Part shown: positions 9,428 to 46,637 of the stretch, one piece after another
Numbering within the stretch: position 1 is the first letter of the stretch
How the letters are laid out: each line of letters opens with the position of its first letter
Source of the DNA: Cheilinus undulatus
Taxonomy: Eukaryota > Chordata > Actinopteri > Labriformes > Labridae
Assembly: GCF_018320785.1 (NCBI RefSeq)
Contig: NC_054872.1
Location: 41,590,551-41,654,550, forward strand
Reading direction: 5' to 3'
Length of the DNA stretch: 64,000 nucleotides
Program-made: the position numbers and the translations under genes
The notes under the pieces: model-generated
Databases searched by the model: none
Told to the model about the DNA's origin: nothing
Seen by the model: the letters and a program-made list of their open reading frames with translations, nothing else

Positions 9428-9981
9428 TAACTGACACACATCCATCCATCCACACATCTATCTGGAAAACCTTCAATACTAAGCGTTTGGGGAAGGGCAG
9501 AGGCTTTGAAAAAAACTCAGCGTGTGATTGGATGAATGTTCTGTCTGTCACATCTTTACGGGACAATCAGAGCAACAAAACGTGACGTAGCCCCTACCAA
9601 GGTGCGTGTGTGCAGCTACTTAGGAATAACGCGAACCATGGCGACTGTAGACATGTCAGTACGTGCTTTTTGGCAGTTTTGAAACGAAAACAACTCACTG
9701 CTGTTCTTTGTTCTTCTTTTAACGAAGAAATGTCATCAAGTTCTGATAAAACTGGTGTTTTAACAGCATCAACGCTACGCTCTTCCGCCATAATTGCATC
9801 GGTATCTTGTTGCTGCTTGCTTACATCAACAACTCCGCTGGGCCTGAAAGTACTGCCCAGTGTCACTGATTGGTCCTGTCACTTTCTAACCAGGCCCAGA
9901 CTGTTCAGATGGGAGCTTTGCAAGATGGATTCGCCAGTGAAAAACAAGGAAACAGGCGTATCCATCTGCTTTGCAAGGTTA
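9428..9981. mobile_element. Non-autonomous element with 8-bp target duplication (copy 1)
   Basis: It matches the element at 37894-38461 over its whole length. It starts TAACTGACACACATCC and ends CTTTGCAAGGTTA. The flanks are AAATATAT (9420-9427) and AAATATTT (9983-9990), an 8-bp target duplication with one change. On the minus strand, around 9700-9795, it reads MAEERSVDAVKTPVLSELDD followed by ISSLKEEQRTAVSCF. This resembles the start of RecQ-like helicase open frames seen in fish repeats; that link is from memory. Superfamily is uncertain; the 8-bp duplication fits hAT-like elements. Confidence 0.7.
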
Positions 9982-10448
9982 TAAATATTTCCCAAATGCT
10001 TAAAAGAATCTTTCTGTAAATCCTAAAGATTTAAATAAGATCAACCACCCCCCCCCACCCCCCCCCCCCAAAAGAAAAACAATCAATGAAAATTTTCTGA
10101 AATAATTTCAAGTAAATTCTCAAAAAAATCAAAACAATTCCACTCAACATTTCTTCTCTAATGCTGATGTAGATAATGAATCATGATGCACGTCAAGTAT
10201 GGAAGATGCAAAGTATGTGTGTAAACTTTTTAAAAATATTTTTTTAATATACATTTTTTATGGTTTATTTATGTATTTATTTTTGTCTTTATGCGTCTCT
10301 ATAATTGTATGTGCCATACATATTTGTAGCTATGTATGTACATATGTACATGTATAGGTACATATAAGTCACCTTGTTATCTATATATAAGTCATCTGAG
10401 TTTTTGACCGAAATGTGACAATGTTAATGAAAAATTTAATAAAATACA

Positions 10449-14600: not shown

Positions 14601-15799
14601 TTATTTTTTTCACTTTTTCCCAACCAAAACCGGGGGGGGGGGGCATGATGACAGGAACTGTCATTTAAAGGGTTAAATTTCTTGAAAGTTATGGTTATTT
14701 AATCTTTGTGAGTAGAGGGAGAGGTGGTTTGCAGAAGTCACAAAAAAATGTTTAAAAAAAATATGAATGTGTAATATTTGTATAGCTTAATATATAAAGT
14801 GAACCATTTTGGTCCTGACAGGCTTTTATGGGTGTAAAATTTTAAGGGCCTCCAACAGTGAAGAATCTTTTTTTTTCTGTGCTTGAAAACCTATGTTTAT
14901 TAGGAAACCTTTGCAGGGCAGCTGGAAGGGATTTCTTATTGAAACTGAGTTACATCAGGAGGTCACGTCCATGAAAAATTTGTCAGACTGGGTTAAACCA
15001 AACAGGACCACTTGGTGGAACCGCAGTATATGGCGCTTTCCTCCAAATTAGACTACTGAGTTGCTTGTAATGTGATATTTTGCAGCAACATCTAAAATTT
15101 GTATTAACTGTGACATATGACAAGTAATGTGAGAAAAAAAGCTCTTTTCTTGTAAATGTGCTTTGGCTATGTTACTTCCTACCCAACATAAACCCAAAAA
15201 GGCACATTTGCGTAAGACTCAGTGGGAACAAACTTTATAATGTTCAACCTGGTAAGAGTGATTACAGACTGCAGATAAAAATAAAACTGAAGTTCTCTCT
15301 GTTTTTCTTTTCCTTTAGCGGATTCTGATAGGCATCAATGCTTTGCTGATCATCTTGTGTGTCCTGGAGTTATGCGCTGGTTTCAGTTCAGCTATTTTGG
15401 GGACAAATGTGGTGGGGACAAGGGAGAAAACAGAGGTAGGATCTGTAAAATCATATTTTCCTATTAAAGGGTGCTGACAGCCTAATAGTTTGGTTGGGCC
15501 CCATGTGTAGAGGCTATATCTCAGCCTGGGTCCAGGCTAACCTGTGGCTCCTTTCCCATAAGTCAGCCCCCATTTGCCTTTAATGATTTCCCGCTCTATT
15601 AACCCATCATGTCCTCTTCAAATAAAATCAATCAAAATTTGGGGTATTTAAGTTGAAAGAGAGAACTTACAATAGTACTTTTTTGAAATCAATTTAAAAT
15701 AATTGCCTTGCTGATGGTATTTTTCTCTTTCAGAGCCCTGATGACCCAGAACAGTACAAACCACTGCTGGAGGACATCACCAGTGACCCTGTGGTCTAA
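11617..15799 (+). CDS. ms4a-like: MS4A (CD20-like) four-TM protein, gene 2
   Basis: Coding exons are 11617-11802 (exon from 11600), 12498-12617, 13267-13323, 13451-13660, 15319-15435 and 15734-15799. All are phase 0 with GT-AG borders, giving 251 residues. The N-terminus (1-62) starts MSVSVTKGDRVTVLTF and ends GTSQSMLG. It holds a CFRCC cluster that gives three more residues than its paralogues. TM1 is about 63-83, TM2 about 96-116, TM3 about 122-146 and TM4 about 193-217. The extracellular loop has the cysteine pair (GGCGYD, EKCMEA) and one N-glycosylation sequon (NDT). The tail is SPDDPEQYKPLLEDITSDPV. The start codon has the shared leader CAGCAGGATG. No frame damage is seen. Confidence 0.9.
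11885..12195. repeat. Possible hAT-type MITE remnant in gene 2 intron
   Basis: It begins ACCACTGGTTCCTAACCTGG, like the CAGTGGTTCCCA end of the hAT copy at 25949. I find no clear partner end. The rest of this intron is unremarkable. Confidence 0.25.
14222..14829 (+). repeat. Two direct repeats about 364 bp apart in gene 2 intron
   Basis: Block 14222-14453 and block 14586-14829 share AAAATAACA, CACTTTTTCCC, CATTTAAAGGGTTA, TTTCTTGAAA, TTATTTAAT, GTAGAGGG and CCATTTTGGTCCT in the same order. They are an old tandem duplication of about 230-240 bp. A G run (about 14632-14643) lies in the second copy. Confidence 0.65.
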
Positions 15800-19850: not shown

Positions 19851-22800
19851 ATGTCTGTGACCATGACCAAAACTGACGGGGTCACCTTCCTCACTCTGAC
19901 CACCGACCCTGAAAGCTCATGTCCTCCACTGTGCCAGATCCTTGGAGGCCTCTGTTACAGCCCAACTTGCTGCTCTGTGTCGCAGCGGCTGAAGAGGGTC
20001 CAGGGAGCTTCTCAGTCAGTGCTGGGGGTGAGTTAAAACCTCATATACATTGTTCATGTTTGTTATCAAATGCTTAAAGCTTCTCTGGTCCACTGTCATA
20101 GCTCTGAGACAGCCTGTGAGTAACGCTCCGTGCATGTAGAGGATATTTATATAGAAGTACACCAAGATTTTGTGAGAGTCAAGGATCTATTATAAGGTTG
20201 GGTATTAGCTTCATTATGCCACCTGGTTACTGTAGTTTCACAGTTCAGGTATTTGCTTTTCATGCTGCTATTCATTCTGTGTTTCCTTCTTTATAGGCTA
20301 TACAAATCATGGCTGGGCTGCTCACCCTCGGTTTTGGAGTGATCCTTCATGCGAGTTACACCACTCCTTGGTGGGAAATTGAATACACCATGCATCACTT
20401 TTGGTTAGGTGCTCTGGTAAGCAATCTAATCATATAATTTATGCTCTTTTTGTGAATAAAGGTACAGATCAAAGTTTAGAAAATTATTTGCTTCACAGTA
20501 GACTCTACAGATATCTGGGAAGTGGCTCCACAGTCCACTGTCAGAAAAAAAACTACATTAAAAATAGGTAGAAATATTCCTCTATCTTACATGATGATAT
20601 AGACTGAGGGCCCAGCAACATTTAACGATTAGCAGAAGCCTTTAGATAGCTGGTTGGTTCAGCTGTATGGACAAAAGAGTTCTGATTTTAAACTTTATAT
20701 GGCAGAACTTCACAGTGGCCATGCAAACACTGCAGTAAAGGGGCCTCATGGCACATTCCTGATGGAGTCAGATATCAAGGAACGATAATCGACTGCTTTA
20801 CGGAGTTGCAGCAGGCAGATCTTTTCAGTCATGAGCTCCAAACAGATGCAGTGTGTGCAGACCCACCTGTAAGCTACGATCCACTAACTGTTCGAGGAGA
20901 CTTAACAGGCGGTAAACCAGGAGAAGGCATGGGAAGCGCTGGGCATATTTGGGATCCAGGCTGAGATGCTCAGCGTGGTGAAACCTCCCTCCTGTGGTTG
21001 AATTCTTGCAGCAACCCTCTTATGACTTTTGGAAGGTGTTTGACTTGGTGAGCAGGGTTGCCCTCTGGGGGATTCTGGAGCCGTGTGGGATCTCACGTTC
21101 ACTCACAAAGATGATGTCTACCCTGTATTCTGGTACAGAGAGGGTCATAAAGTGTGGTGGCTCAACTTCTGTCTTCTTCCCAGTTGATTCTTGGGTGGGG
21201 TAGGAGTGCGTCTTAGCCCCTGTGCTCTTTAGTACCTGTGTGGACTAGACAATGGGGTGGGTAACAGGGATAAGAGAACTGTGATGTGTCATATGATGAT
21301 GCCCAGATCACTGGTCAGGACTTTGCTGATGATGCTGAGAGCCTTGCAGAGACTGTAGGTGTCCTTGTGGGGACTCTTTTCTGGCTGAGTGAGGAGGCTG
21401 AAATGTTGGGACTGTGTGTCTCTTGGGCCAAAATAAATATCCAGCCATTCAGGGACACCAAGGACGCTGACGGCATGGCTGAGATCAACCACAGACTCAC
21501 ACACAGGGCGATGGATACATGAAGCAAGGTGGTGTGGCGCTCCTGGTATCTGAGCATGTCGACAAAAATCAGACTCTTTCGGTCCTTCTGGTCTTACTAT
21601 ACTCTTGTGAGGCCTGGTGGCCCTTTGTGATGACATCTCTTCAGTGCATCTCTGGGTGCTGTGTGTCTAATGCCGACACGCTCGGAGCAAAGATGGGAGG
21701 GGTGAGTTGCTGGACACAGGAGCAGCAGCTGGGCTTCTATGGACAAACATTCACTGAGTTATAAAAATGCACAACCGAATATGCTTAACAAATGGTTTTG
21801 AGAAGAAAATGCTATAAAAAATAAAATCTGAATAATAAATAGAATAAAAAACAGATTTTCATACAGACTCCATGCAACAAAAAAGATATTGCTTTACATC
21901 TCCATTAACTCCAGAGTACTACTGTACATCATCTTTGCATTGAAGCTGATGGAAAGGCCAGTTTATTCTGTACCATGTCTCCTTTCTTTTTAGTTCATTT
22001 TCTTCGGTTGCATGTGCATCCTGTCAGAGAAACGCCCCAGTCCCTGTATGGTGAGTAGCTCAGCCTGTCATCCTGCTGTTATCTCTCACTTTCCTTCTCT
22101 TTTTCCTTTACTCTATGGTTTTAGAATTCTATACTTGTGCAAAGTACAGAAGGTTTTCCTTTTTTTCAGGTCATCCTCAATGTGATTCTGAACCTAGTAG
22201 GAGTTGCGTTTGCCATCACAGGCGTCGTCCTCTACACCATCAACATCTTCCTCATCAGGCTGTGGTGGGGAAATTGTGACCCAGATGACTACTGGAACAA
22301 CTACAGGTACAACTATGGGGAACGGCCAACCTCGACTTCGTCTCCAGAGGAACAGCTAATGATGAAGAAGTGCATCGAGAGCAGAGAACTGACTCTGGTG
22401 AGTTTTTAATGCCTTTAGGAAAAAAATCAAACAGTCTGATGAGTGAATACCTCTATGTTCACAAATGAAGGCTGTCTGTGATGTGAAATTTACTTCTTCA
22501 AAATGTTCTTTTTCATGAGCTGTTGATTCTTTTAGAAAGTTTTACACCTTATCACTCTATTAAAGACCCTGTAAAGTGAAAATAGATCTGTATTTAGGTT
22601 TGTTGTATGGCAGGTCACTGTGTTATGAACCTCTAGTTCAATTTTAGTCTGATAAAACATCTCCAAGTTTATAGAATTAAGCTAGAAAATCATGAAAAAT
22701 GGGCTCCAGGATGGCGTGGGCGTGTCTGTTGAATGAGCTGAAGCCACGCCCACTCAGAAGAAATAGAGTGGTACAGTCGTGACGTAATTTTGTAGGCAAA

Positions 22801-25800
22801 CCCAGAAGTTCACATAGCATGGGTTTCCTCGAACCTGTGGGATTTTTCACTGGGTTTTTGGATTGTTGGTGAAAATAAGCTCTTTGTCCAGTAAAAGTTT
22901 TTGAAACTTACATGTTTTGTTCATAAAGATAATCTTCACAAATTGATAATATAAGCATCATATCTGGTTCGTTAATCTCACTGACGAAAGTAAAAAGCTA
23001 ATGTCCTATACTGAACTACAACACAGTCAACTGAGTTTAACGTCATCACCCGCGGATACATGTGAATGACAGGCTCAGTTTCCTTGCTTCTGACGATGAC
23101 GTGTAATCTTCCTGACAAACGCTGCAGTCCTTGTTAGCTATCTTTTAGCAACCGCCTTTATTAAGACGTGAAAAGATACACAATTCAAAGGTGGGGCACG
23201 TTTCAGATGTATTTTATGTTGTAGGATAAAACGTTAAACTCTCTTGAGCTTGTGTTCACCACAGACCTTATTTCAGGCATTTAACCAAAAACTTATTCAA
23301 AAATCCCATAGACTTTCAGACGAGGGAACCAGAAGTGCTAAAATGCTAACTCACTTCCGCGTGTTAGGACTCATTCCTGCAACACTCTATAGGATCCTCT
23401 CAAATTCAAAAAATGTAACAATCTGAATGGAGGAAAGCAGTCATGCCATCATCTAGAGTCCGTTTTCTGGCTCAAATCTCTGTCATGATACTTTAAATGA
23501 TCCATAGACCACTGTGGCGGATAGATTTGGCAAATTTAGCTCACAGTGAATAAATAAACACTAATACTAAGACTAATAAACAGCACTGAACAGACTGTTA
23601 ACTTTCAATAAAGGCAGTGACATCAGCTAACAACAGACTGTACTGAGATGAACTGCTCTGTGATTTTATATCATAGTGTGAGAGGGGCGGGGTCATTCCC
23701 CACTGTGGGCTCGTGACATCACCAGCCAGAATTCACTCCAATGAAGATCTCAGTGTTTTCACATGTTTACAGCAAACACTTTCCAACATATCTAGAGTGT
23801 TAAGACATACATTTTGGATTTCACTTAAGAGGGTCTTTAACTCATCAGTAATAATAATAAAGGATGCACCATCACTTTTTTCCAGTACAAACTCCACTAA
23901 CATTTGGGTTCTCACTGACAAAGAGTACAAATATTAGTCTTTAATAAACAATAACACAACATAAAATCACAAATTAAAAACTTGTTCTTAAATCTTAATC
24001 AAGGATGTAACGGTGGACAGGTCAGTGCAGTCTTAATGCGTTTTGGGGAAAATGCTTGGTAGAGCTGATAATGTAATAATGACATAATTTTACTACATCA
24101 CACGATGTAGCAACGATGCATTATGTAACAACATGTCTGTATGTTTGTAACAACAATTATGTTTTCTATGTTTTGAACAAAGTTAGCTCATCAAGATTTC
24201 TCCCTGATAAGGAAATAACTTGAGAGTGAAAATACTGTAAGCATAACATTTAGTTTGCCAAAATGTCACATCCAGAGCTACCAAAGTGACATCATGGAGG
24301 TTGAATTTACAGCAAAATAAAACACTGGCCTCCTATTCTTTTGATATTTAAATTTTTACTTCTTTAAAGCTGTAGTTTCTTGTCCATTCATAGTCATTTT
24401 AAAACTAAAGCCTTCAAAGTGATGTCTACAACCCTATGACAGACACCACGGTGGCCTTCTTTATTTCTGTTTTGCTTTTTTATAGTCAATAAAGACGTCT
24501 TTGTGTTTCCATAGTCCTCTCACCTAATGAGATCAATGGGCATAATCATGCATAGATTTTTATAAGAGAGGGAAAGATCCAGTTTCTTAAACTCTGACAA
24601 TCCTTAACATCAGTCCAAAATAAAAGAAGTGCAAAAAAAGAAGAGCACATTTGAAAGAACTGGGCAGAGTTTGATGTGTAAATGTGTGTTTTTAAGTTAT
24701 CCCTGTCTTTTTTGTCCACACAGCTGCTTTTGAGAAGCATCAACGGCATGCTGATCGTCATTTCACTCCTGGAGCTCTGTGTTGTCGTATCTTCTGTTAC
24801 CTTAGGGGTCAAGGCTTTGAAGAGAAGTGGCAAGACAGAGAACAAGGTAGACTCTGATAAATCCTAGTCTACTGTGACACTCAGGAAAGGCAGACTCACA
24901 GCAAAAGCTCTTTTCCTCAGTTGCTTCTTACTTCTTTGTGTCTGAATGTACCACAAACCTCTGTTATGACGCCATCTTTGAAGACTTGAAAAATGAGTCA
25001 AGTCATGAAAACTTGAGTCTGAATTGAGCGTCAAGTTTTAGGTTGTTCAAGTCTAAGTCACCGATATGAATTTAGTTGAGTCCTCATCCCTTGAGTAAGA
25101 GTCTAAAAGCCTTTGCACACCAATGACAATCTGGATAAAAAGCATGAAAATGCATTTCCAGAGGCAAGATTGATGCAGTTGATCAAAAAATCCACCATGA
25201 TTTGAAAAATAACAAGCTGCAATTTTGTAAGGCAAAATTACATTGTTGTTTTGAAAGCTTGCCTTAATCCTCCTAATGCCTCATTATCAATAAAAGTGTG
25301 TAGTTAATATAAACTGTAATTAAAATAAGTTATTTTCTTTAAATAAGCCTAAAACCCTCTTCTTTCACTGTAGTCCAAATGCAGTCAACACTTGAGTCCT
25401 CGGTGCTCGTGTAAAAGTCAAATCACCAGGACTCTTCAGACTCCACAAGTTTAATTCCTTGTCCAAAGTGTCACACCACTGCTCATTAATTTGATCAACA
25501 GACAGATACTGTGACAAAAAGTGTTAGTTGGTGCATTTTGATACCCATTAAGTTTTCAACCTCTTCCAAGAGGATCTGGCTACAGGCTTCTATGGTGGGT
25601 GTCTGGATGTAGACCTCTACATTTCAGTGGTTACAACAAGTTTTTGTTTTTTTATGGCTAAAAATCAAAATTTACAGAGGGGGATGCATTTAAATGTAAC
25701 ACACCACAAACTAATGAAAACCCAAAGAGGTTTAAGGTTCGGCATCCCAACCAAAAAGATTAGGGTTAGGGAAAGGGGGATAAAATTGAAAATAACACAC

Positions 25801-26673
25801 GATAAAGGAAAACCCCAATAAGGACTAGTACATCACTTCCTGCCCCACGTACAAGCTTGCCCCATTCTAGAGGTTTGCAGTAGATGAGCCCAAAACACCC
25901 CACTGCAGAGGTCTGCGACTGGATGCTCTCACCTTTTCCCCTCTAAAGCAGTGGTTCCCAGCATTTTTCCTTTTCTTGTATTTAGAAAACCCTAAGCCAC
26001 CCTGAGACCCACTTGGAAAAATAGCAGATCAATTTTCACGGTTTTCATTGACAAAACAAAATAATGGGCCTACATACACTTGTTCTTGACAAGTGGACGA
26101 CAGCGTATGAGGGCCACTCTAGAAAAAAAAAAAGGATTTTGTTTTTATTCAGATAAAAACTTGACATTCTGAAGTTTAAAAAGTTATTCATGTACAAAAA
26201 AAAAATAACGAATTTCTGCTTTGAAAGTCATTAATCAATGTAAACCAAAGCTCAGAATTTTTGAGATTATTAAGTCAAAAACTAAAAAAATCCAACCACT
26301 TTTTTTCAGTTTAGTTTCTTATAAATTTTGACTTTACACTGGTGTTGATTTATCATTTTGAAATCTTGAAATTTTTGAGTCTCTAATATCAAAAATCAAG
26401 ACTTTGTAAACTAATTTTTTTTCCCATAAATTACCAAACTTTTAAACTCTGAAATTATGAGTTTGTTTTCTTGTACATATATGACTTTATAATCTCAAAA
26501 TCCTCTATTATTTTTCCCACCAAAATGTTGCTTTATTTTTTTTTTAAATGAACATATCCTCTTTATTTATTTATTTTTTAAATGACTCCTATAAGCCATC
26601 ATACATTATATTTCTAATAATGGTTTAAAAAAAAAAAAACATATTGCAGGCATCTGCCCAAAATCTTGTATCA

Positions 26674-26709
<36 letters not shown>

Positions 26710-27386
26710 TTTTAATTATTGTTAGATAAACCAGTGCTATTATGCATCCTCTACATATGTCTGTGGTTTTTAACCAATATTAGTGAAATAAAAGTTGTAA
26801 AAAGGTGCTGACTCAGACCATTCAGTGTTAGATCAACTGAGAGCTTTATTTCCATTCCCTGAAAAGTGGTGATTTTGGAGATATGAGGTTTTGGGCCAAC
26901 ACCAGCAACATGCACATCTAAGTTTGACCACTTCAGACTAGACAGTGTCCCGAGCACCCCCTAAGATCTACGGCACTCTCCCTGGGGGTCCACAGACCCC
27001 AGTTTGGGAACCACTGCTCTAGAGGAGTCAGCCTGCTGCCCGCTGGCCGCAGCTTCCAGGTTAATGAGAAGACATGAGCGTAACACGAAAGTCTCTCTCT
27101 CTCTTTCTTTTTTTAAAAAGTAACTTTAAACTTTTATTTTAAAACTGCACGAGGTATTAATCTTCTAAGGAGTTTCTCACAGAAATAATTCATTAGGCTG
27201 TTGGCTTCCTTGTTGTATCTGATTTTATTGCCTTAATATTTAGAAATGGTGCTTTTAGTTCAGATAGAAAAGTGATACCTGCTATTCTTTTTTCACCCTG
27301 CTGATATCATTTTTGTCCTCTAGAGTCCTGATGATCCAGAATACAAACAACTGATGGAGGAGATCACCAGTAACCCTGCAGTCTAA
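19851..27386 (+). CDS. ms4a-like: MS4A (CD20-like) four-TM protein, gene 3
   Basis: Coding exons are 19851-20027 (exon from 19834), 20297-20416, 21994-22050, 22170-22397, 24724-24846 and 27324-27386. All are phase 0 with GT-AG borders, giving 255 residues. The N-terminus is MSVTMTKTDGVTFLTL..SQSVLG. TM1 is about 60-80, TM2 about 92-113 (FIFFGCMCILSEK), TM3 about 119-147 (FAITGVVLYTIN) and TM4 about 196-222. The large loop (about 148-194) is longer than in genes 1-2, rich in Tyr, Asn and Asp, with cysteines in GNCDPDD and KKCIES. The tail is SPDDPEYKQLMEEITSNPAV. It is the intact member of a recent duplicate pair with gene 4. Copy-to-copy changes cluster in both extracellular loops and the N-terminus. 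Confidence 0.9.
20770..21690 (+). mobile_element. LINE reverse-transcriptase fragment in gene 3 intron
   Basis: Plus-strand words typical of non-LTR reverse transcriptase appear in order. They are VALWGILEPCGISRSL then STLYSGTE near 21055-21145, CGGSTSVFFPVDSWVG near 21155-21200, and DFADDAESLAE near 21312-21345 (the [YF]ADD active-site box). AEMLGLCVSWAKINIQPF follows near 21395-21450, and an LLYSCEAWW motif near 21590-21620. Frame changes and stops separate them. The clade is not assigned. The gene 4 intron keeps only the first part (34700-35115). Confidence 0.8.
22560..23840. mobile_element. TTAA-flanked non-autonomous DNA element (full copy)
   Basis: The left end is TTAAAGACCCTGTAAAGTGA and the right end is the near-complement CACTTAAGAGGGTCTTTAA. 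TTAA borders both ends (22560-22563, 23837-23840). This is the target type of piggyBac-like elements. It is 1281 bp with no transposase frame, so it is non-autonomous. The copy in gene 4 (35958-36378) shares the insertion point but is internally shortened. Gene 1 has an older relative. Confidence 0.75.
25949..27015. mobile_element. hAT-type non-autonomous element in last intron of gene 3
   Basis: The ends are CAGTGGTTCCCA and TGGGAACCACTG, perfect 12-bp inverted repeats. The flanks CTCTAAAG and CTCTAGAG are an 8-bp target duplication with one change. The interior is AT-rich with a T run (about 26675-26705) and no transposase. In gene 4 only the right part survives, ending at 38638. Confidence 0.85.
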
Positions 27387-28257
27387 ATAAAAATCTCTGT
27401 TTGGTGATTTTAAAAACCCAGACTATAACACTGGGTGCTTCGTATTGTTTAATGCAGATATGAATCAGACTCATTTAACAAGCAAAGTCTCTGATGAACT
27501 TCCAAATCTTTTTTTAAGGACTTCAAAATTTTTGTTTGTGTATATTTGATTATTTTGCTTATATCTGAGCTTTGAATATTCAATCAAATCAACAAAAGCT
27601 GAACTTTGGTTGTAGGTTTTATATTACCTTTATTGACATTCTGAATGTATTCTGTGAATTAATGCTTCAGACCCAGACCAAAACATTTTTTCATCAGGGG
27701 GGTCTTTTGTATTTAGTGTGATGTTTTTTAAAATGCACTTAATTTTTGTGGCTGAAAATTTCCTTAAAAAGTGAACAGCCACAGCAGGTTTGTTCAAACT
27801 CGGTCATTCCCACATTTCCTAAAAAGCTCCATTTTTAAGTTTCAGCTCCGAGAGCTCTGGCTTTAGTAAGTAATAGAGCCATCCGCCTAAACAGGTAGTG
27901 CTCAAGACCACCACAGTCCTCCACCACTCCACAGCCTGCTTCAGGGGACTCGGGAGGGGGAAAATCCTCCACCTCTAAAGGTCGCTCTGAGGCAGCAGTG
28001 CTGCGGGACGCTGTGCCACTTTCTGGCAAGGGGAGTCACTGTCACTCCCGCCTCATCTGGAAAGCTCCGTCCTTTTCCCCTCCCTCCTCTCAGCACCAAA
28101 CTGCTCACTTTCTGTGCATTTTAAAAATCCTCAAGTGGGCGGAGTTATCTTTGAGCTGGGGCTTCACTTACACTTTAAGTTTGGAGTCATGATTGGTTTT
28201 TATGTATTTTAAGTTATTAAAATGAAGAAATTCATTCACTTATTTTCAATCTTGAGA

Positions 28258-28263
28258 AATAAA
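28258..28263 (+). other. Candidate poly(A) signal of gene 3
   Basis: AATAAA at the same aligned place as 39492-39497 in gene 4. An earlier AATAAA (27386-27391) overlaps the stop codon and is too close to be the likely signal. Confidence 0.4.
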
Positions 28264-28496
28264 ACCAGTGAAGCTCTTTATTTTCATACATCTTGGTATA
28301 GCAGATGGAATTCCTGTCATTGTATTTTTTATAGCTGAATGATGATTACATTTTGAAAGCTTGTTAATTAAAAAACTACATTCAAGATGGAAAACCTGTA
28401 CTGACTCTCTCTTAACACTTTTCTTTCAATGACTGTTTACTCACCGATTGATTTGGGAATTAGCCTACTATGGTATTAACTGTGACTTTTATGATG

Positions 28497-28690
28497 AATG
28501 GTAAAAGGACTTAAGCTTGTACAGCACTTTTCTAGTTGTCTGATAACTCAAAGTGTTTTTACACCACATTTATTCACTGATGGCAGAGGTTGCTATGGAG
28601 AATCAGCCACCAGTGTTAGCTAATCCCATTCAAACACTTCATACATTTATTGTCTGACTTTAGTGGAAGAAGATTTGAACAAAGGAAAGA
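28497..28690 (+). repeat. Common teleost interspersed repeat
   Basis: GGTAAAAGGACTTAAGCTTG, then GCACTTTTCTAGTTGTCTGA and AACTCAAAGTGTTTTTACAC, matches a dispersed fish repeat family I know by its pattern (ATGGTAAATGGACTTGTA..). It carries no gene. Confidence 0.5.
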
Positions 28691-28989
28691 GGTGCTCTCA
28701 GGTCCCAAGAATAAAACCATGAAACCAAACAAGGAGAGGTCAGACTTGTAACTGGCATAACTGGCATGTTTTCACATTTTTTACACTCCATCAAGACATG
28801 CTCAGAGCAAAATACAAATATAACACAATCAGCAGTAACAAACTAAAACCATCATCATAAAGAAAAGGACAAAAAATAAATAAATAAATAAATAATGTCA
28901 AAGAACATGAAGACTTAAAAAGTTGAAACATAAAGGTGCTTTAGCCAATAAATCAAAGGCTTTTTAATTTTTGCAAAACATAGGCCTTA

Positions 28990-29567
28990 GATTTTTCTGA
29001 TAGCAATTTTTTCTCCACACTTAAGCAAGTTACAAGTCTCTACCTCTCCTTCTCAACCTCACCTTTGATTTCAAGATCTATAACAGTGTCTACTGATCTT
29101 AAACCCAATGGAAGAGAGCTCCAAAGAGGTGCAGCAATGACCCTGAAAGCACAGTCTCCTTTGGTAAGGCTGGAGTGTGGAACAACCAACGGACCCTGAT
29201 CGGAGGACTGAAGAGTCCTGCTGGGATTGTAAGGTTTTAAGAGTTCTGAAAGGTAGGCTGGTGCCTGACCATGCAGGGCTTTAAAAGTAAACATAAGAAT
29301 CTTCAAACGTATTCTGAAATGTATGGGAAGCCAGTGGAGAGAACACAGAATTGGTGTGATGTGTGACCTTTTTGAAAACTTGGTAAGTAGTCTGGCTGCA
29401 GCGTTTTGAACTAATTGTAGATGATTTATAGACGTTTTACTGAGACTGTTGAAATGTGAGTAACAGTAGTCTAAACAGGAGGAAATAAATGTATGAATAA
29501 CCATCTCCATCTGAGCTGTAGAAACAACATGTCTTAGTTGAGCGATATTTTGAGTTGGAAAAAGCAA
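28990..29567 (-). mobile_element. LINE fragment: C-terminal reverse-transcriptase region
   Basis: The minus strand carries an uninterrupted frame of about 175 codons (29040-29567). It includes SCLDYCYSHFNSLSK, LQLVQNAAARLLTKFSKRSH, HWLPIHFRIRLKILMFTFKA and LHGQAPAYLSELLKPYNPSR. These motifs belong to L2/Rex1-like LINE open reading frame 2, past the catalytic core. The 5' part is missing. It lies in the spacer between the two duplicates and is not a host gene. Confidence 0.85.
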
Positions 29568-29689
29568 GAACGGACCAGATTATGGACATGCTGGTCTACG
29601 TAGAGACAAGGAGTGGCTAAATGAAACACAGAGATTACAAAAAACAGGTTTTACACAAGTGGACAGGGTATGAAGAAATATGCTGAGAG

Positions 29690-31607
29690 CAGAACATGGT
29701 AAACTGAAGCCCAGCAAGTCACAACAGATGGGAATACTGACGTCAATGTAACATTACTGATTAAAACAACAATGTAGTGTCCAGCTTCAGACTTATGTTA
29801 ACTCCTCTGTTTTTCTCAATTTCTGCATTTATGATGATGAACAAACTGGTGTGATATTTCACAAAAAAGTTTCTAAGTTAACTCTTAGAGGTCCACTGGC
29901 TATTTTGCCATTTTTAAAAATTTTCTTCTGACTAAATAAATCATTCAGAATATGTTTACTATGCTCATGGTTGATGTAATCTTTTTCGGCACTACCTCAA
30001 CTTTATAAAATCAAAACTATTTTACCTTTTTAAGTTTAATTTACTGTATTAGATATAGGGCCTCCAAAAACAAATCATCCCACAAACATGATTTTTAAAT
30101 TAATTTTTTTTAAACAATATATTGTCATTTTTAAAAAGGAATTACAAAATGCTGAAATTTTGAAAAAATACCAGTGCCAGTCCTGTACAGCATGGTCCAC
30201 TGTCCCCTGTGTGTGACATTACTTTTTATATAGAATTAAAATGATCATATTTCCTGTTTTATTTGGTCTATTGACATCAAACAAAAACTGAAAAAAGCTT
30301 AAAGATCATGCTTTCCACACAAAGTGATTGCAAAATGTGTTTTTTTTTTAATGCTGTCATGTGACAAAAGTAGCGCATGATGATATCATGCCGGCGTGAT
30401 CATAGACCCCTAAGAGCTATGCCCCCTAAAATCTCTCTGATTAGTTTATCATAGTAACATATTAGCCACAAAATCAAAAAAAGAATCAACTTTAAGTATT
30501 TACAGTGCTTAACGAATTTATTAGACCACCCTAACCCTAACCAAAGTGAGGTTTATGCCATAGCTGCCCTAAATTAACTGCATTGGTAATTACCAAAATC
30601 ATTTTTTATGTTTCTGCAATGGTTAATACAACATTATGTAGAAGCTCTTTAACACAAATGATATTTTTAATGCTAAAATAGAATTATATATAATTAGTAT
30701 TGTTTTACTGATTTACTAAAAAACTGAAAAAATAGTAAAGCACATTAATATTTCTTGATGACAAATTGTAGTTATTTGCGTACATTCCTGAACAGAAAAA
30801 TGAGTTTTAGAGGTTAAATTATACTTGATTCATTTCTGACTTCTCAGAGAAGCCCAGTGAGCCGGCTCAAATTTGATTGAATTCAGTTTGAAATCCCTCA
30901 TTCCTGTTCAAAATGGTAAAACGTGGAGAGCTCACTGAAAATGAAAGAGTTCGCATTAAAGCACTTCATGATGCTGACAGATATTAGACAGATATTTACT
31001 GTGGATTTAGACTAACGTTTGAAGCCAATTACACTATTTACAGCTCATGAAGAAGGATATTTGAAGCCAATATAGGCAGATATTCTCAGCTGATATAGGG
31101 CAAATTTTACAGCTGAAACAGGCGGATATTTTCAGCCAGTTTTGGGAGATATTTACAGCTTTTTTAGGCCCAAATTTACAGCCAATATAAGTAGATATTT
31201 ACAGTGACTATAGGTGTATTTTCACTGGTGATACAGACTGATATTTAAGCCAATAAAGTTTGATGGTTACTGCCAATATAGGCCAATATTTAAAGATGAT
31301 ACAGGCTGATATTTACAGCTGACATAGGTCAGTATTTTACAACTGATACAGACTATTATTTGCTGCTATTTTGGCCCAAATTTACAGCCATTACAAACTG
31401 ATATTCAAGCCAATGTAGTTTGATAGTTGAAGCCGATACTTACAGCTGATGCAGACTGAAATTTACAGCCAGTATAGGCAGATTATCACAGTGGGTATAG
31501 GCTGATACAGATATTTAATCCAGTATAATAAGATATTTCCAGCCAATTCAGGCACAGTGTCATCTCCAAGGTAAAAATGCAAGCACACCCATGCCGTTTT
31601 AATACTA
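29690..31607 (+). repeat. Composite repeat block 1 (shared with gene 6 introns)
   Basis: The part at 29690-29770 matches 46945-47040, and 29825-30385 matches 49511-50057 (TGCATTTATGATGATGAACA.., CATGGTCCACTGTCC..). The part at 30962-31607 matches 50522-51110. Order and orientation are the same at both loci. The middle (30390-30960) is not shared. The block stops at TTTTAATACTA, where duplication copy B begins. Confidence 0.7.
30962..31560 (+). repeat. Degenerate 23-bp minisatellite
   Basis: About 25 units follow the pattern GGCAGATATTTACAGC plus YRATATA (23 bp). Most units are 22-24 bp with scattered changes. A second diverged array lies at 50522-51070. Confidence 0.75.
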
Positions 31608-31994
31608 ACATGTTATAAAAAGAGCATCATGGAGGTGGTAGGGTGATGTTAGGGGTCGCCTTACTGCATCAGGACCATGACTTGGTCCATGAGTTCTGCT
31701 CTCTAACGGGGAATGCTGAAGGAGAATGTCCCGTCATCAGTTTGTGACCTCAAGCTCGGGCACACCTGGGTTACTGAACAGGACAATGATCAAAAACACC
31801 AGTAAGCTCTAAAACCCTCCAATGCCGCTGGATTAAAACAATTCTACAAGGAAGAGTGGGCCAAAATTCCTTCACAGCGATGTAAAAGGCTCATGGCCGG
31901 GTATAGCTTGCAGTGTTTGCCGCAGCTGCTAAACTTCAGGTCATTCCCTTAATTTATCTTTCCTTTATTTCAAAATCAAAGCAGAAAGTTCTCA

Positions 31995-32158
31995 GATTTC
32001 TTTCTGTTCAGGGTCAAATTATTCTCCGTACTCAGGAAGAGGGAGGTACTGCTGGGAACATGTAAGGACTTCCTCTTCACCGTCTCACAGATGTTGTCAG
32101 ACTGGTTCTTTCAGGCATAGCGCAACTGTTTTGATTTTGTTCCTGTTGACACAAACAG
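31995..32158 (+). other. Non-coding first exon of gene 4 and upstream block
   Basis: It ends ACACAAACAG|GTATGTG (donor at 32159). It is almost identical to gene 3's first-exon block, including CTCAGGAAGAGGGAGGTACT with its GGAA core. The left edge is not defined. Confidence 0.55.
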
Positions 32159-32451
32159 GTATGTGCTTTGCCTTTTATGATAGAAATCATTTAAAGAAGA
32201 GTATTTATCATTTTAAGCCAATCATTGTACATGGTTCTACAGCCATTTACAGTAGCTTAGCATCCTGTAAAAGTGTTCAGTGCTCTTTGCTGATCTTGTC
32301 TTGTCCGTTCATCCTGTGAATCCTGTGAAGAAATCTCCTCCTGCTGCGTGTTCTCTCTCACGTACCACTCATTGGTTAACTATTTCAGAGGAAATGCTAC
32401 CAGAGGCTCACTCAGCCTGCTTGCTGTAGATCGCCTTGTTTAATATGGCCT

Positions 32452-33480
32452 AAAAGTCTAATAAAAATATTGATGGAAAAAAGTGGAGAGGCAAAAATGG
32501 GCCACAATTAGCAACAAAGTGGCAAAAAAATGTGGAAAAAAGCAAAATGGTAAACAAGAAAAACAGGTGAAAAGTGAAAAAAGTGGCAAAAATGCCAATG
32601 TTGGCAGAAAAAAGATGAAAAAATGGTTTAAATGTGTCAGATAGAAGTTTTAAAACAGTGGCAAAAATGGGTAAAAAAAGTAAAAAAAAAAACAAATGGC
32701 AAAAATTGGAAAAACGCAAAAAAAGGATAGATTAGGTAGGAAAAAGAAGAGGCAAAAAAAAAAAATGGGTTAAAAGTGGGAAAAAGTGGAAACAAAGGCA
32801 AGAAGCAACAACTGTGGTCTAAGTGGTAAATATGGGTAAAAGTGGCAAAAATTGACAAAGAGGTAGAGAAATCAAAATAAGGTAGCAAAATTGGTTTAAA
32901 ATGGCAAAATAGGGTAAAAAAAAAACAAAACAAGAAAAGGGGGGAAAAATCCAAAAATAATTGGCAAAAAATAATGGCATAAAAGGGCAAAAAGATGCAA
33001 AAATTAGGGAAAAGTGGGAGAATAAAGTTCTGAAACTGTAACAAAGGGTTCAAGTAACAAAAGAAGTGACAAAAGTGGCAAAAAGTAGCAGAAATTGGTT
33101 AAATGTGGCAAAAAAGGAACACAAGAAGTGGAAAACTGGTTGAAAACAGTCAATATGGATAAAAAGTGGAAAACAAGGGCTAAGGCAACAGAGAACTGGT
33201 GAGAGTAGCAAAAGCAAGTGGCAAAAATGGGTTAAAAGTAGCAAAAAAGGGGCAAAAATTGGTTGTGGCAACAGTGTGGCAAAAAATGGGCATAAAAAAG
33301 CAAAATTGTGTGCCGCCAAAATACGGTGGGAAAAAAAAACAAGAAAAGTAGGTGAAAAGTGACAAAAATGAAGCTGCAAAAATGGGCCACAATTGGCAAA
33401 AAAGTGCAAAAAGAGATTAACAATGACAAACATGTAAAAAATGTGTTAAAAGTGGGATGAAGAAGTGGCTAAAAAGCGCA
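32452..33480 (+). repeat. Expanded purine-rich minisatellite in gene 4 intron 1
   Basis: About 1 kb of degenerate units near 20 bp with core AGTGGCAAAAATGGGTTAAA. The plus strand is nearly free of C. Long minus-strand open frames here are Phe/Leu-rich artefacts of composition. The matching intron of gene 3 has only about 260 bp. Confidence 0.8.
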
Positions 33481-33940
33481 TAAGGCACAACAAAGGGTTA
33501 ATACAGCCCTAGTTTAGCAGAAACCCTAAGGCTGCTCTGTTTTAGTTGATGATCAATCATGAACTACAACCTTTTAATATCATTTAAATTAATTTGTAAA
33601 GGTACCTTGAACAATATTAAACAACAATGTTGCTATTTGATGCATTGTACCAGAGTTATCTGACAGTGAATTTACATACGGAGTCCATCTGCTGGTCACA
33701 AATAAAGAATTTAAAGACAACACGATGAGTGATGTTTTCCCCACAGGGACATTTTTGTACTGTATATCAGCTTTGACTGCCTTCAGCCCTTTTGACCTAT
33801 ACTGTATACCTTACCACTTTCACTCACAGAACAAATAAAAACATATTAAGTTTAAAGTTACAGAACAATAGCAGCTACACTCTAACTTATGTGATGTTAA
33901 GTTTCCTCTGTGATCTTGTTCAGGCTCCAGGATCAGCAGG

Positions 33941-36900
33941 ATGTCTGTGACCATGACCAAAACTGATGGGGTCACTATGCTCACTTCAGCCGCCGACCCT
34001 GAAAGCTCATGTCCTCCACTGTGCCAGATCCTCAAAGGCCTCTGTTGCAGCCCAGCTTGCTACTCTGTGTCGGAGCGGCTGAAGAGGGTCCAGGGAGCCT
34101 CTCAGTCAGTGCTGGGGGTGAGTACACCAAGACTTTGTGAGAGTGAAGGATCCATCATAAGGCCAAGTATTAGCTTTATTATGCTACCTGGTGACTGTAG
34201 TTTCACAGTTCAGGTATTTGTTTATCATGCTGTTGTTCATTCTGTGTTTCCTTCTTTATAGGCTATACAAATCATGGCTGGGCTGCTCACCCTCGGTCTT
34301 GGAACGATCCTTTATGAGAGTGGCATCACCCCCTGGTCGTCTCTTGACTATACCTTGTATCACTTTTGGTTAGGTGCTCTGGTAAGCAAGCTAATCATGC
34401 AATTTATGCTCTTTTTGTGAATAAAGGTACAAATCAAAGTTTAGAAAATTATTTGCTTCACAGTAGACTCTACAGATATCTGGGAAGTGGCTCCACAGTC
34501 CACTGTCAGAAAAAACTACATTAAAAATAGGTAGAAATATTCCTCTATCTTACATGACGGTATAGACTGAGGGCCCAGCAACATTTAACAATTAGCAGAA
34601 GCCTTTAGATAGCTGGTTAGTTCAGCTTTATGGACAAAAGAGTTCTGATTTTAAACTTTATATAGCAGAACATCACAGTGGCCATGCAAACACTGCAGTA
34701 AAGGGGCCTCATGACACAATCCTGATGGAGTCAGATATCAAGGAATGATAATCGACTGCTTTAAGGAGTTGTAGCAGGCAGATCTTTTCAGTCATGAGCT
34801 CCAAACAGATGCCTCAGATGCAGTGTGTGTGGACCCACCTGTAAGCTACGTTCCACTAACTGCTCGAGGAGACTTGACAGGCAGGAAACAAGGTGAAGGC
34901 AGGGAAAGCTCCTGGTATATTTGGGATCCAGGCTCAAAGTGGTGAAACCTCCCTCCTGTGGTTGAACCCTCTTCTGACTTTTGGAAGGCATTTGACTTGC
35001 TGATGGATGCCACCTAGAGGATTCTGGAGCTCTGTGGGATCTCACGTAGACATCAAGCTGATGTCTACCCTATATTCTGGCACAGAGAGTGCTGTAAAAT
35101 GAGGTGGCTTCACCTCAAAACCACCAAAATAAAGATCCAGATCCTAAATATGCTTAACAAATGGTTTTGAGAAGAAAATACTCTAAAAAAAAACAATTTA
35201 AACTGAATAAATGAAATAAAAATAAAATCATACAGAGTTTCGTAAAGACTCCAAGCAACAAAAAAGCTGATTAATTGTTATTGTTTTGCACCTCCATTAA
35301 CTCCAGAGTACTAGTGCACATCATCTTTGCATTGAAGCTGATGGAAAGGCCAGTTTATTCTGTACCATGTCTCCTTTCTTTTTAGTTCATTTTCTTCGGT
35401 TGCATGTGCATCCTGTCAGAGAAACGCCCCAGTCCCTGTATGGTGAGTAGCTCAGCCTGTCATCCTGCTGTTATCTCTCACTTTCTTTCTCTCTTTCCTC
35501 TACTTTGTGGTTTCAGAATTCTATACTTGTTAATGCGAAACTTAAAAGCTTTTTCTGTTTTTCTCAGGTCGTCCTCAATGTGCTTCTGAACCTAGTAGGA
35601 GTTGGGTTTGCCATCACAGGCGTAGTCCTCTACATCCTGAACACCTTCCTCATGTGGCTATATTGGGGAAGTTGTGACCCAAATGACTACAGGGACAACT
35701 ACAGGTACAACTATAGGGAACGGCCAACCTCGACTCGGTCTCCAGAGGATCAGCTGATGATGAAGAAGTGCATGGAGGGCAGAGAACTGACTCTGGTGAG
35801 TTTTTAATGCCTTTAGGAAAAATGTCAAACAGTCTGATGAGTGAATACCTCTATGTTCACAAATGAAGGCTGTCTGTGATGTGAAATTTACTTCTTCAAA
35901 ATGTTCTTTTTAATGAGTTATTGATTCTTTTAGAAAGTTTTACACCTTATCACTCTATTAAAGACCCTGTAAAGTGAAAATAGATCAGTATTTAGGTTTA
36001 TGGTATGACAGGTCACTGTAATGAACCTCTAGTTCAGTTTTAGTCTGATTAAACATCTCCAAGTTTATAAAATTAAGCTAGAGAATCATGAAAAATGAGG
36101 CAGTAAAATATGCTCCAGCATGGTGTGGGCGTGTCTGTTGAACGAGCTGAAGCCACGCCCACACAGGAGAAAAAGGGTCCTCTCAAATTCAAAAAAATGT
36201 TACAATCAGAATGGAGGAAAGCAGTAACGCCATTATCCTGCCCCTTGACCTTGTGATCAGAGTGCAGCGGCCTGACTCTGTGCCAGAGAAGAGACAAAGT
36301 CTGTTTTTCTGTCTCAAATCTGTCATGATACTTAGTGTTAAGACATAAATTTTGGATTTCACTTACGAGGGTCTTTAACTCATCAGTAATAATAATAAAG
36401 GATGCACCATCACTTTTTTCCAGTCCAACTATTACAAACATTTGGGTTAGTCTAGTTTTAGTCATCTTGATGAAAACTAAACTTAATTTTTGTCAGTTTT
36501 TGTCATCACGGATCTATTTTTGTTAGTGTTAGTCTAGTTTTTGTCACGGAAAAAAATGCTGTCGATGAATAGTTTCAGTCATAGTTTTAGTCCACAAAAT
36601 TAACACTGGGAAGAACAATTGAAAGATCCAGTTTCTTAATAAATGTTCTCTGATTATCCATAATATCAGTCCAAAATAAAAAGTGCAACAAAAGAAGAGC
36701 ACATATGAAAGAACTGGGCAGAGTTTGATGTGTAAATGTGTGTTTTTAAGTTATCCCTGTCTTTTTTGTCCACACAGCTGCTTTTTAAAAGCATCAACGG
36801 CATGCTGATCGTCATTTCACTCCTGGAGCTCTGTGTTGCCATGTCTTCTGTTACCTTAGGGGTCAAGGCTTTGAAGAGAAGTGGCAAGACAGAGAACAAG

Positions 36901-38920
36901 GTATAGTCTGATAAATCCTAGTCTACTGTGACACTCAGGAAAGGCAGACTCACAGCAAAAGCTCTTTTCCTCAGTTGCTTCTTACTTCTTTATGTCTGAA
37001 TGTACCACAAACCTCTGTTATGACGCCATCTTTGTAGGCTTGAAAAATGAGTCAAGTCACAAAAACCTGAGTCTGAATTGAGCGTCAAGTTTTAGGTCGT
37101 TCAAGTCTAAGTCACCGATATGAATTTAGTTGAGTCCTCATCACTTGAGTAAGAGTCTAAAAGCCTTTGCACACCAATGACAATCTGGATAAAAAGCATG
37201 AAAATGCATTTTCAGAGGCAAGATTGATGCAGTTGTCCAAAAAATGATGCACATAAAAGACATTCTGCATTCATTCATCTTTTGATACGTTAGAGTGAAA
37301 GATACAGTGAGGTGTCCTCCTAACTGTGTGTAACCTTTCTGTTATGCACAGAAAGAAAAAACAATTTTCTACTTTAAAAGTCGTAAATGAATGTGAACCA
37401 AAGCTCAGAATTTTTGAGATTATTAAGTCGAAATCTCAAAAATTCAACCCCTTTTTCAGTTTGGTTTCTTGTAAATTTTGACTTTACACTGTTGTTGATA
37501 GTTCGTTTTGAAATCTTGAAATTTTTGAGTCCCTAATATCAAAAATTAAGACTTTTTAAACCAAGAAATTTTATTTTTCTCTTCTCATCAATTACCAAAC
37601 TTTTAAACTCTGCAATTATGAGTTTGTTTTCTTGTACATATACGACTTTATAATCTCAAAATCCTCTATTCTTTTTCCCACCAAAATTTTGATTTATCTT
37701 TCAAAAATTAACATATCCTCTTTATTTTTTAAAATTATAATTGACTCTTATACACCATCATGAATTATATTTCTAATCATTTCTGAAAATAAAACATACT
37801 GCTGGCATCTGCCCAAAACCTCATGTCACCATTTTTCATAATTTTAATTATTTTTACATAAACCAGTATTATGCATCCTTTACATATGTCTGTTAACCTC
37901 ACACACCAACTGGATTTGTTTCACACATCCATCTGGAAAACCTTCAATACTAAGTGTTTTGGAAAGGGCAGAGGCTTTGAAAAAAAAAAAGTCGGAGTGT
38001 GATTTGGATGAACGTTGTGTCTGTCACATCTTTACGGGCCAATCAGAGCAACAAAACACGTGACATAGCTGCGACTGAGGTGTGTGTGTGCAGCTACCGA
38101 GGAATAACGCGAACTATGACGACTGTAGACATTTCAGTACACGACTTTTGCCTTTTTTTGTCTTTTTTGAGAAGAAAACAACTCCCTGCTGTTCTTTGTT
38201 CTTCTTTTAATGAAGAAATGTTGTCAAGTTCTGATAAAACTGGTGCTTTAGCAGCATCCACGCTAAGCTCTTCCACCATAATTGCACCGGCCTCTTTTTG
38301 CTGCTTGCATTCGTCATGACTCCACTGCGTCTGAAAGCACTGCCCCTCGTTGCTGATTGGTCCTGTCACTTTCTAACCGGGCCCAAACGGTTCAGACGGG
38401 AGCTTTGCAAAATGGATTCACAAACAAGGAAACGGGCGCATCCATCTGCTTTACAAGGTTATATTTCTGTGGGTTTTAACCAGTATTAGTTAAAGTTGTA
38501 AAAAGGTGCTGACTCAGACCATTCAGTGTTAGATTAACTGAGAGCTTTATTTCCATTCCCTGAAAAGTGGTGATTTTTGAGATTTGAGGTTTTGGCCCGA
38601 TGCCAGCAGTTCCCCAGACCCCAGGTAGGGAACCACTGCTCTAGAAGAGTCAGCCTGCTGGTTTCAGCTTCCAGTTTAACATGAAGACATGAGCGTAACA
38701 CCAAAGTCTCTTTCTCTCTTCCTTTTTAAAAAGTAACTTGAAAGTTTTATTTTAAAACTGTGCGAGGTATTAATCTTCGAAGGAGTTTCTTACAGAAATA
38801 ACTCATTAGGCTGTTGGCTTTCTTGATGTATCTGATTTTATTGCCATAATATTTAGAAATGTGCTTACAAAGAAATACAGACAACTGATGGAGGGGATCA
38901 CCAGTAACCCTGCAGTCTAG
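33941..38920 (+). CDS. ms4a-like: MS4A (CD20-like) four-TM protein, gene 4, altered last exon
   Basis: Coding exons are 33941-34117 (exon from 33924), 34262-34381, 35386-35442, 35568-35795 and 36778-36900, all phase 0, giving 235 residues through TM4. They align residue for residue with gene 3. The large loop is WGSCDPNDYRDNYRYNYRER.. with the paired cysteine in KKCMEG. The last exon is uncertain. Relative to gene 3, the pyrimidine tract, acceptor AG and the codons for SPDDP are gone. An AG at 38871-38872 (CTTACAAAG) would keep the frame and give KYRQLMEGITSNPAV then TAG at 38918-38920, 250 residues in all. A better-placed AG at 38855-38856 would give KCAYKEIQTTDGGDHQ and an earlier stop. Reading into the intron stops after one codon (GTA TAG). 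The body is intact, so I call a gene, not a pseudogene. Confidence 0.8.
34700..35115 (+). mobile_element. Shortened LINE fragment in gene 4 intron
   Basis: It aligns with 20755-21160 of copy A and then stops. The [YF]ADD part present in copy A is missing here. The deletion came after the duplication. Confidence 0.7.
35958..36378. mobile_element. Internally deleted TTAA-flanked element in gene 4
   Basis: Same ends (TTAAAGACCCTGTAAAGTGA, GAGGGTCTTTAA) and same insertion point as 22560-23840, but 421 bp long. Confidence 0.7.
36443..36608. repeat. Small interspersed repeat, copy B only
   Basis: Words TAGTCTAGTTTTAGTC and CATAGTTTTAGTCCACAAAA, absent from the matching place in gene 3. A related sequence in opposite orientation lies near 61105-61240 (GATTAAAACTAC, AAATGTGACTAAA). 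Confidence 0.45.
37894..38461. mobile_element. Non-autonomous element with 8-bp target duplication (copy 2)
   Basis: It begins TAACCTCACACACC and ends TTTACAAGGTTA. The flanks are ATGTCTGT (37886-37893) and ATTTCTGT (38463-38470). Copy A has the empty site (CATATGTCTGTGGTTTTTAA, from about 26753), so insertion came after the duplication. It sits inside the hAT-type element inherited from copy A. The minus strand (about 38190-38290) reads MVEELSVDAAKAPVLSELDN then ISSLKEEQRTA. The full-length relative is the copy at 9428-9981. Confidence 0.85.
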
Positions 38921-46598: not shown

Positions 46599-46637
46599 GT
46601 GTGAGCCTCGTTCATTAAGGTGAATAAAGACAGAGCG

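Follow-up and report, generated by a model that had tools for sequence, protein, structure and literature searches.

The window analysed here, a 64,000-nucleotide stretch of the genome of Cheilinus undulatus (NC_054872.1, positions 41,590,551-41,654,550), contains two neighbouring duplicate genes, gene 3 and gene 4, which belong to a tandem array and are predicted to encode four-pass membrane proteins of the MS4A/CD20-like type. Comparison of the array copies indicates that diversifying selection has probably acted on both extracellular loops of these duplicated, receptor-like proteins, with the remaining parts, here called the chassis, homogenised and probably constrained. In two sets of copies, genes 3 and 4 on the one hand and six copies upstream of the window (u1-u6) on the other, amino acid replacements in the loops accumulated at approximately twice the rate of change in introns, from which we infer diversifying selection on the outer face of each copy.

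The family assignment was obtained by scanning the spliced gene 3 protein against Pfam, in which it matched the CD20-like domain (PF04103) with 95.5 bits (cut-off 27.9). A profile of six array proteins matched the solved structures of CD20 (6y97, 6y90, and 6vja) and of the IgE receptor beta chain (8k7t); positions 57-201 of the 230 profile positions, from the first transmembrane segment (TM1) into TM4, matched the CD20 chains with a best E-value of 2.2e-13. Alignment to CD20 predicts a topology of four passes with both loops outside, namely a small and a large extracellular loop (ECL1 and ECL2, respectively). CD20 has a disulfide between two cysteines of its large extracellular loop; the large-loop cysteines of the array proteins, C154 and C186, were invariant in all six aligned sequences. 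When the exon 4 protein was used to search the 1.17-Gb assembly, at least 11 matches were obtained among the candidates scored, every one of them inside the MS4A array. The array comprises at least 11 copies in one orientation: a partial copy (u0) and u1-u6 (exons 1-5 each), which lie upstream of the window and were found in fetched flanking DNA, and genes 1-4. These 11 copies span window coordinates ~-80,200 to +36,900, and exons 1-5 of the ten copies compared have open frames and GT/AG splice sites.

Among u1-u6, the encoded amino acid varied at 35 of the 56 loop codons, compared with 18 of the 167 other codons. Mean pairwise replacement divergence in the loops (pN 0.187) was clearly above the divergence of the introns (0.084 over 1390 sites; P=0.0002), while synonymous divergence in the loops (pS 0.120) was not significantly above it (P=0.14). 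In the rest of the protein, replacement divergence (pN 0.020) was a quarter of the intron rate and pS was 0.038; the latter is under half of the intron level, and may be due to homogenisation or to constraint on synonymous sites. The loop pN excess was robust to the use of four loop definitions (P<0.022 in eight of eight tests) and was kept in all five reduced sets of u copies. Among the ten pairs without u3, exon 2 differed by 0.07-0.17, the preceding 100 bases by 0.00-0.07, and the following 300 bases by 0.04-0.08, with exon 2 exceeding both flanks in nine pairs and level in one. As to whether the same loop positions are variable in both sets of copies, 13 of 53 columns varied in both, with no significant excess (p=0.40).

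For the codon models, the loops were chosen beforehand as a site class (56 of 223 codons in u1-u6). Under a partition model in which the loops were given their own synonymous rate, the ratio of replacement to synonymous rates in the loops (omega_loop) was 2.42, 2.15, 2.32, and 2.24 on four trees, a star tree included, and differed from 1 on all four (p=0.0036-0.0067); with a shared synonymous rate, omega_loop was 5.6-6.0. The comparison of M8 with M8a on two u1-u6 trees gave likelihood-ratio (LR) statistics of 72 and 92, and 18 of 21 and 13 of 14 sites with a posterior above 0.9 were located in the loops, though these posteriors assume one tree for copies that are mosaics and serve as a map of sites, not as the main test. 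We also simulated 200 replicates of a mosaic null with per-exon trees, an omega of 1, and a high local loop rate. One replicate reached the LR of 8.47 on the main tree, three reached the lowest observed LR of 7.35, and none reached an omega of 2.42. The partition test was somewhat liberal, as 14 of the 200 null replicates passed an LR of 3.84 with omega above 1 when ~5 were expected.

The initial annotation had singled out genes 3 and 4 from counts made by hand, and these proved exact. Among 235 aligned codons, 43 carry amino acid changes and 10 are changed only synonymously, with 18 against 3 in exon 4 (TM3 and the large loop), 12 against 3 in exon 2 (TM1 and the small loop), and complete identity over the 57 nt of exon 3. 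The count of 24 differences in 228 bases of exon 4, compared with 6 in the 200 bases that open intron 4 (p=0.002), was likewise reproduced. We rejected this 3% stretch as a neutral yardstick, since it is a low spot: the aligned introns of the two genes differ at 149 of 1850 sites (8.05%), all aligned non-coding DNA differs at 495 of 5000 (9.9%), and 4.9% of 200-site non-coding windows contain six or fewer differences. The claim that the loops outpace the introns was thus overstated in its comparator, but it stands as a count and in the comparison of replacement sites given below. Against all introns, exon 2 was significantly more divergent (19/120, 15.8%; p=0.006), and no significant excess was found for exon 4 (10.5%; p=0.20) or exon 1 (17/177; p=0.47). 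Changed codons were enriched in the loops, at 22 of 66 codons compared with 21 of 169 elsewhere (p=0.0005); the loop changes comprise 10 of 17 codons in ECL1 and 12 of 49 in ECL2.

Between genes 3 and 4, loop pN was 0.172 and intron divergence 0.081 (P=0.0026). The excess held on all three further non-coding yardsticks (P 0.0002-0.0104), among them the whole of the aligned non-coding DNA, which differed by 0.099 (P=0.010), and the DNA lying no more than 200 bases from exon 2 or exon 4, which differed by 0.062 (P=0.0002). Loop pS (0.125) was not significantly above introns (P=0.19). With a synonymous rate shared across the protein, omega_loop was 3.13 (p=0.0012). For the individual loop exons of this pair, the ratio of replacement to synonymous divergence (dN/dS) exceeded 1 (1.88 for exon 2 and 2.03 for exon 4), neither significantly. 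The gene 3/4 pair alone is suggestive of positive selection, not decisive; the proposal of the initial annotation that such selection acts on the extracellular parts draws its support mainly from the six copies outside the window.

Two identical tracts of 168 and 125 aligned sites between genes 3 and 4 (Table 1) make exchange between these genes likely, with a homogenising effect. Within the gene span, a run as long as the first was obtained in 1 of 10000 permutations, and the 111 sites left after removal of exon 3 had P=0.0165; the second had P=0.0065 within the gene span and P=0.0016 over all aligned sites, a permutation that pooled poorly aligned blocks, the tracts being significant, less strongly, within the gene span. 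Constraint alone was rejected as the reason for the identity of exon 3, as the identical tract extends into both flanking introns. Conversion between the two genes thus probably acts as a homogeniser. Conversion tracts had been named beforehand as a possible explanation of the clustered loop changes; such tracts were found, but they homogenise and do not account for those changes. The exon-block trees of u1-u6 also conflict. In the exon 1 block, u5 and u6 group together (100% support). By the approximately unbiased (AU) test, the tree of exon 4 is rejected by the alignment of exon 2 (p=0.0005). The tree of exon 2 is rejected by the alignment of exon 4 (AU p=0.025, though the Shimodaira-Hasegawa (SH) test gives p=0.089), which does not reject the tree of exon 1 (p=0.22). 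Exon 1 is identical between u5 (-20633 to -20457) and u6 (-9278 to -9102), with an upstream flank that is 1% different, and exons 2 and 4 of these two copies differ by 17% each.

Several observations weigh against diversifying selection on the loops. In the five pairs of upstream copies that include u3, exon 2 (0.04-0.14) is less divergent than the introns on either side of it (0.16-0.21), and in the other pairs some more distant introns reach exon levels, so that the island of divergence at exon 2 is not universal. Whole-protein dN/dS ranged from 0.70 to 1.65 and was significant by pairwise counts in none of the 15 pairs, loop pN exceeded loop pS at p<0.05 in only one of the 15, and the pooled excess of loop pN over pS reached only P=0.07. 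Tests of each loop on its own tree were weaker (omega 3.97, p=0.033 for ECL1; omega 1.96, p=0.082 for ECL2; joint p=0.023). When u1-u6 and genes 3 and 4, eight copies in all, shared a single tree and the loops kept their own synonymous rate (dS), omega_loop was 1.16 (p=0.50); dS may be hard to estimate there because of the long branch that separates the two sets of copies. The membrane parts on their own tree had an omega of 0.68, not significantly below 1 (p=0.28), and since pS in the rest of the u1-u6 proteins is also below introns, purifying selection is not separately demonstrated and homogenisation may explain much of the low divergence outside the loops.

The gene 3/4 pair adds further points of this kind. 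Whole-protein dN/dS was above 1 but not significantly so (1.34, p=0.22 by the NG86 method; 1.52, p=0.20 by maximum likelihood), omega_loop with a separate loop dS was 1.54 (p=0.39), and the pooled excess of loop pN over pS had only P=0.20. Synonymous divergence in the loops is somewhat high, chiefly in ECL1 of this pair (pS 0.31, P=0.027). The cytosolic N-terminal exon diverges at about the intron rate, and change in this pair is therefore not purely extracellular. We also count against the reading that its evidence base is one genome and consists of DNA sequence only.

The main rival explanation is that the duplicates are old, with the loops keeping their old divergence while repeated conversion evened out the introns and the remaining exons. 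It draws on the identical tracts shared by genes 3 and 4, the conflicting exon-block trees of u1-u6, and the low synonymous divergence outside their loops (0.038 compared with 0.084 in introns). It is also consistent with the improved fit of models that give the loops a separate rate, both in u1-u6 (r 3.4-4.5, p=0.0002-0.004) and in the eight copies (r 3.0, p=6e-6; for genes 3 and 4, r 2.8, p=0.11), and with the eight-copy omega_loop that, with its own dS, is not above 1. Retention of old divergence is harder to reconcile with loop pS values (0.120 and 0.125) that are not significantly above introns while loop pN clearly is, and with the omega_loop of u1-u6, which remained above 1 with its own dS and against the mosaic simulations. 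We regard this explanation as unlikely.

Far less probable is relaxed constraint, under which the copies would be decaying and their loops would tolerate any change. The altered exon 5 donor and damaged exon 6 of gene 4 fit such decay, as does the non-loop pN between genes 3 and 4 (0.068), which is not significantly below introns. Relaxation, however, lifts replacement divergence to the neutral level, not to twice that level; the frames are open in ten copies; and in u1-u6 non-loop pN reaches only a quarter of the intron value, though homogenisation may contribute to this.

The initial annotation had also raised conversion from another paralogue, by which the loop exons of one copy would have been overwritten, as the source of the clustered differences. 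Gene 2, the nearest paralogue, was used to polarise the changes (its exon 5 was ended manually at a GT). Exons 2 and 4 of genes 3 and 4 differ at 43 nucleotides, and of these gene 2 has the state of gene 3 at 13, that of gene 4 at 17, and neither at 13, two of which are gaps in gene 2. The states are interleaved: in exon 2, 7 are like gene 3, 10 like gene 4, and 2 neither, among 19 sites; in exon 4 the corresponding counts are 6, 7, and 11. No additional close copy turned up in the assembly when the exon 2 and exon 4 regions were used as DNA queries. Although the exon 2 protein of gene 4 is nearer to that of gene 2 (77.5%) than to that of gene 3 (70%), in DNA sequence gene 3 and gene 4 are 15.8% apart over exon 2, and gene 2 is 21.7% from gene 3 and 19.2% from gene 4. 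A single overwriting event, for which the interleaved states and the searches offer no donor, cannot account for the matching pattern in u1-u6. Of the explanations considered, this is the least credible.

Under diversifying selection on the loops, selection would favour a different outward surface for each copy, and exchange between copies would homogenise the chassis parts and reassort exons, such that the loop exons stand out. The loops might then bind copy-specific ligands or partners, putatively chemical cues, the role suggested for MS4A chemosensors of the mouse, or microbial molecules. A further and more tentative idea, which we hold to be possible but not probable, is that the array is a modular receptor repertoire in which exons 2 and 4 diversify independently of each other and are shuffled among copies, with the chassis (exons 1, 3, and 5) homogenised.

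The gene models are listed in Table 1. The five coding exons that the initial annotation described as shared correspond to exons 1-5, but gene 3 has six; the sixth, C-terminal coding exon had been missed. It occurs in genes 2 and 3 as well as the u copies, and is damaged in gene 4. A simple motif search did not find exon 6 of gene 1. The GTATAG donor of exon 5 and the damaged exon 6 of gene 4 suggest that the tail of this gene may differ. More divergent MS4A-like exons, probably belonging to two more genes, lie downstream at 42046-43049 and 46614-52811, and a probable third lies beyond the window at ~74.9-79.1 kb. A block of ~550 bases, 84% identical between its two occurrences (9451-9983 and 37922-38463), is found downstream of genes 1 and 4, contains an antisense open frame in both (9594-9866 and 38094-38369), and has no counterpart in the aligned gene 3 copy; it could be left over from a mobile element. 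The stretch separating gene 3 from gene 4 carries, on the minus strand at 29040-29567, an open frame of 175 amino acids, which we take to resemble part of the reverse transcriptase of a long interspersed nuclear element (LINE).

Table 1 Coordinates of array genes, exons, and identical tracts in the window.
Feature	Position	Strand	Description
Gene 3 exon 1	19851..20027	+	Cytosolic N-terminus, 59 codons; frame open, followed by donor GTGAGT; 17 of 177 bases differ from gene 4
Gene 3 exon 2	20297..20416	+	TM1, ECL1 (small loop), and the beginning of TM2; flanked by AG and GT splice sites; 19 of 120 bases differ from gene 4
Gene 3 exon 3	21994..22050	+	TM2; same as gene 4 at every base
Gene 3 exon 4	22170..22397	+	TM3 and large loop ECL2; 24/228 differ from gene 4
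Gene 3 exon 5	24724..24846	+	TM4; 5/123 differ from gene 4
Gene 3 exon 6	27324..27386	+	Predicted C-terminus SPDDPEYKQLMEEITSNPAV-stop (SPDDPE..TSNPAV); from paralogue similarity and acceptor AG, splicing inferred from sequence
Gene 4 exon 1	33941..34117	+	
Gene 4 exon 2	34262..34381	+	TM1, ECL1
Gene 4 exon 3	35386..35442	+	TM2
Gene 4 exon 4	35568..35795	+	TM3, ECL2
Gene 4 exon 5	36778..36900	+	TM4; followed by donor-like GTATAG; if unspliced, in-frame stop one codon on
Gene 4 candidate shortened exon 6	38873..38920	+	KYRQLMEGITSNPAV-stop; initial codons altered or lost relative to gene 3
Gene 2	11617..15799	+	Exons 11617-11802, 12498-12617, 13267-13323, 13451-13660, 15319-15435, 15734-15799
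Gene 1	15..3291	+	Paralogue; exons 15-191, 990-1103, 2216-2272, 2380-2586, 3169-3291
168-site identical tract, genes 3 and 4	21926..22093	.	Covers exon 3 and extends into the intron on either side; likely conversion tract
125-site identical tract, genes 3 and 4	20468..20594	.	Intron 2; likely conversion tract

The domain and the tandem arrangement in one orientation are like those of the known MS4A/CD20 family (PF04103, including the fish MS4A17 group). Mouse members of this family are said to act as chemosensors, reportedly from work by Greer et al. in 2016. Detection of ligands would explain diversification of the loops, although the array copies are known here from sequence alone. In the passages compared, mouse MS4A proteins are cited as chemosensors (PMC9290968), CD20/MS4A1 is described as an olfactory receptor (PMC11026480), and MS4A2 is among the genes screened in one study (PMC5569703). 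Zebrafish is described as having 21 MS4A genes, mostly clustered (PMC2826416); the wording 'positive selection' does not appear in the main text of that paper. In primates, MS4A12 is given as one of 14 genes with at least 12 positively selected residues in the excerpt of PMC5737536, and is likewise an MS4A member under positive selection, but there the selection is among orthologues. In the array it would act between paralogues in tandem, for the most part on the loops. Among the open-access matches listed, no title or abstract opening mentioned loop selection in fish MS4A proteins.

Diversification of both loops on a near-constant chassis does not feature in the MS4A/CD20 family passages compared. 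The array illustrates that two neighbouring duplicates can look inconclusive until the remaining array is read. If the array is indeed a modular repertoire, novel combinations of loops would be produced by exchange in addition to mutation. Selection targeted at the loops, together with the list of candidate residues, would provide a short list of sites for the binding of ligands or partners.

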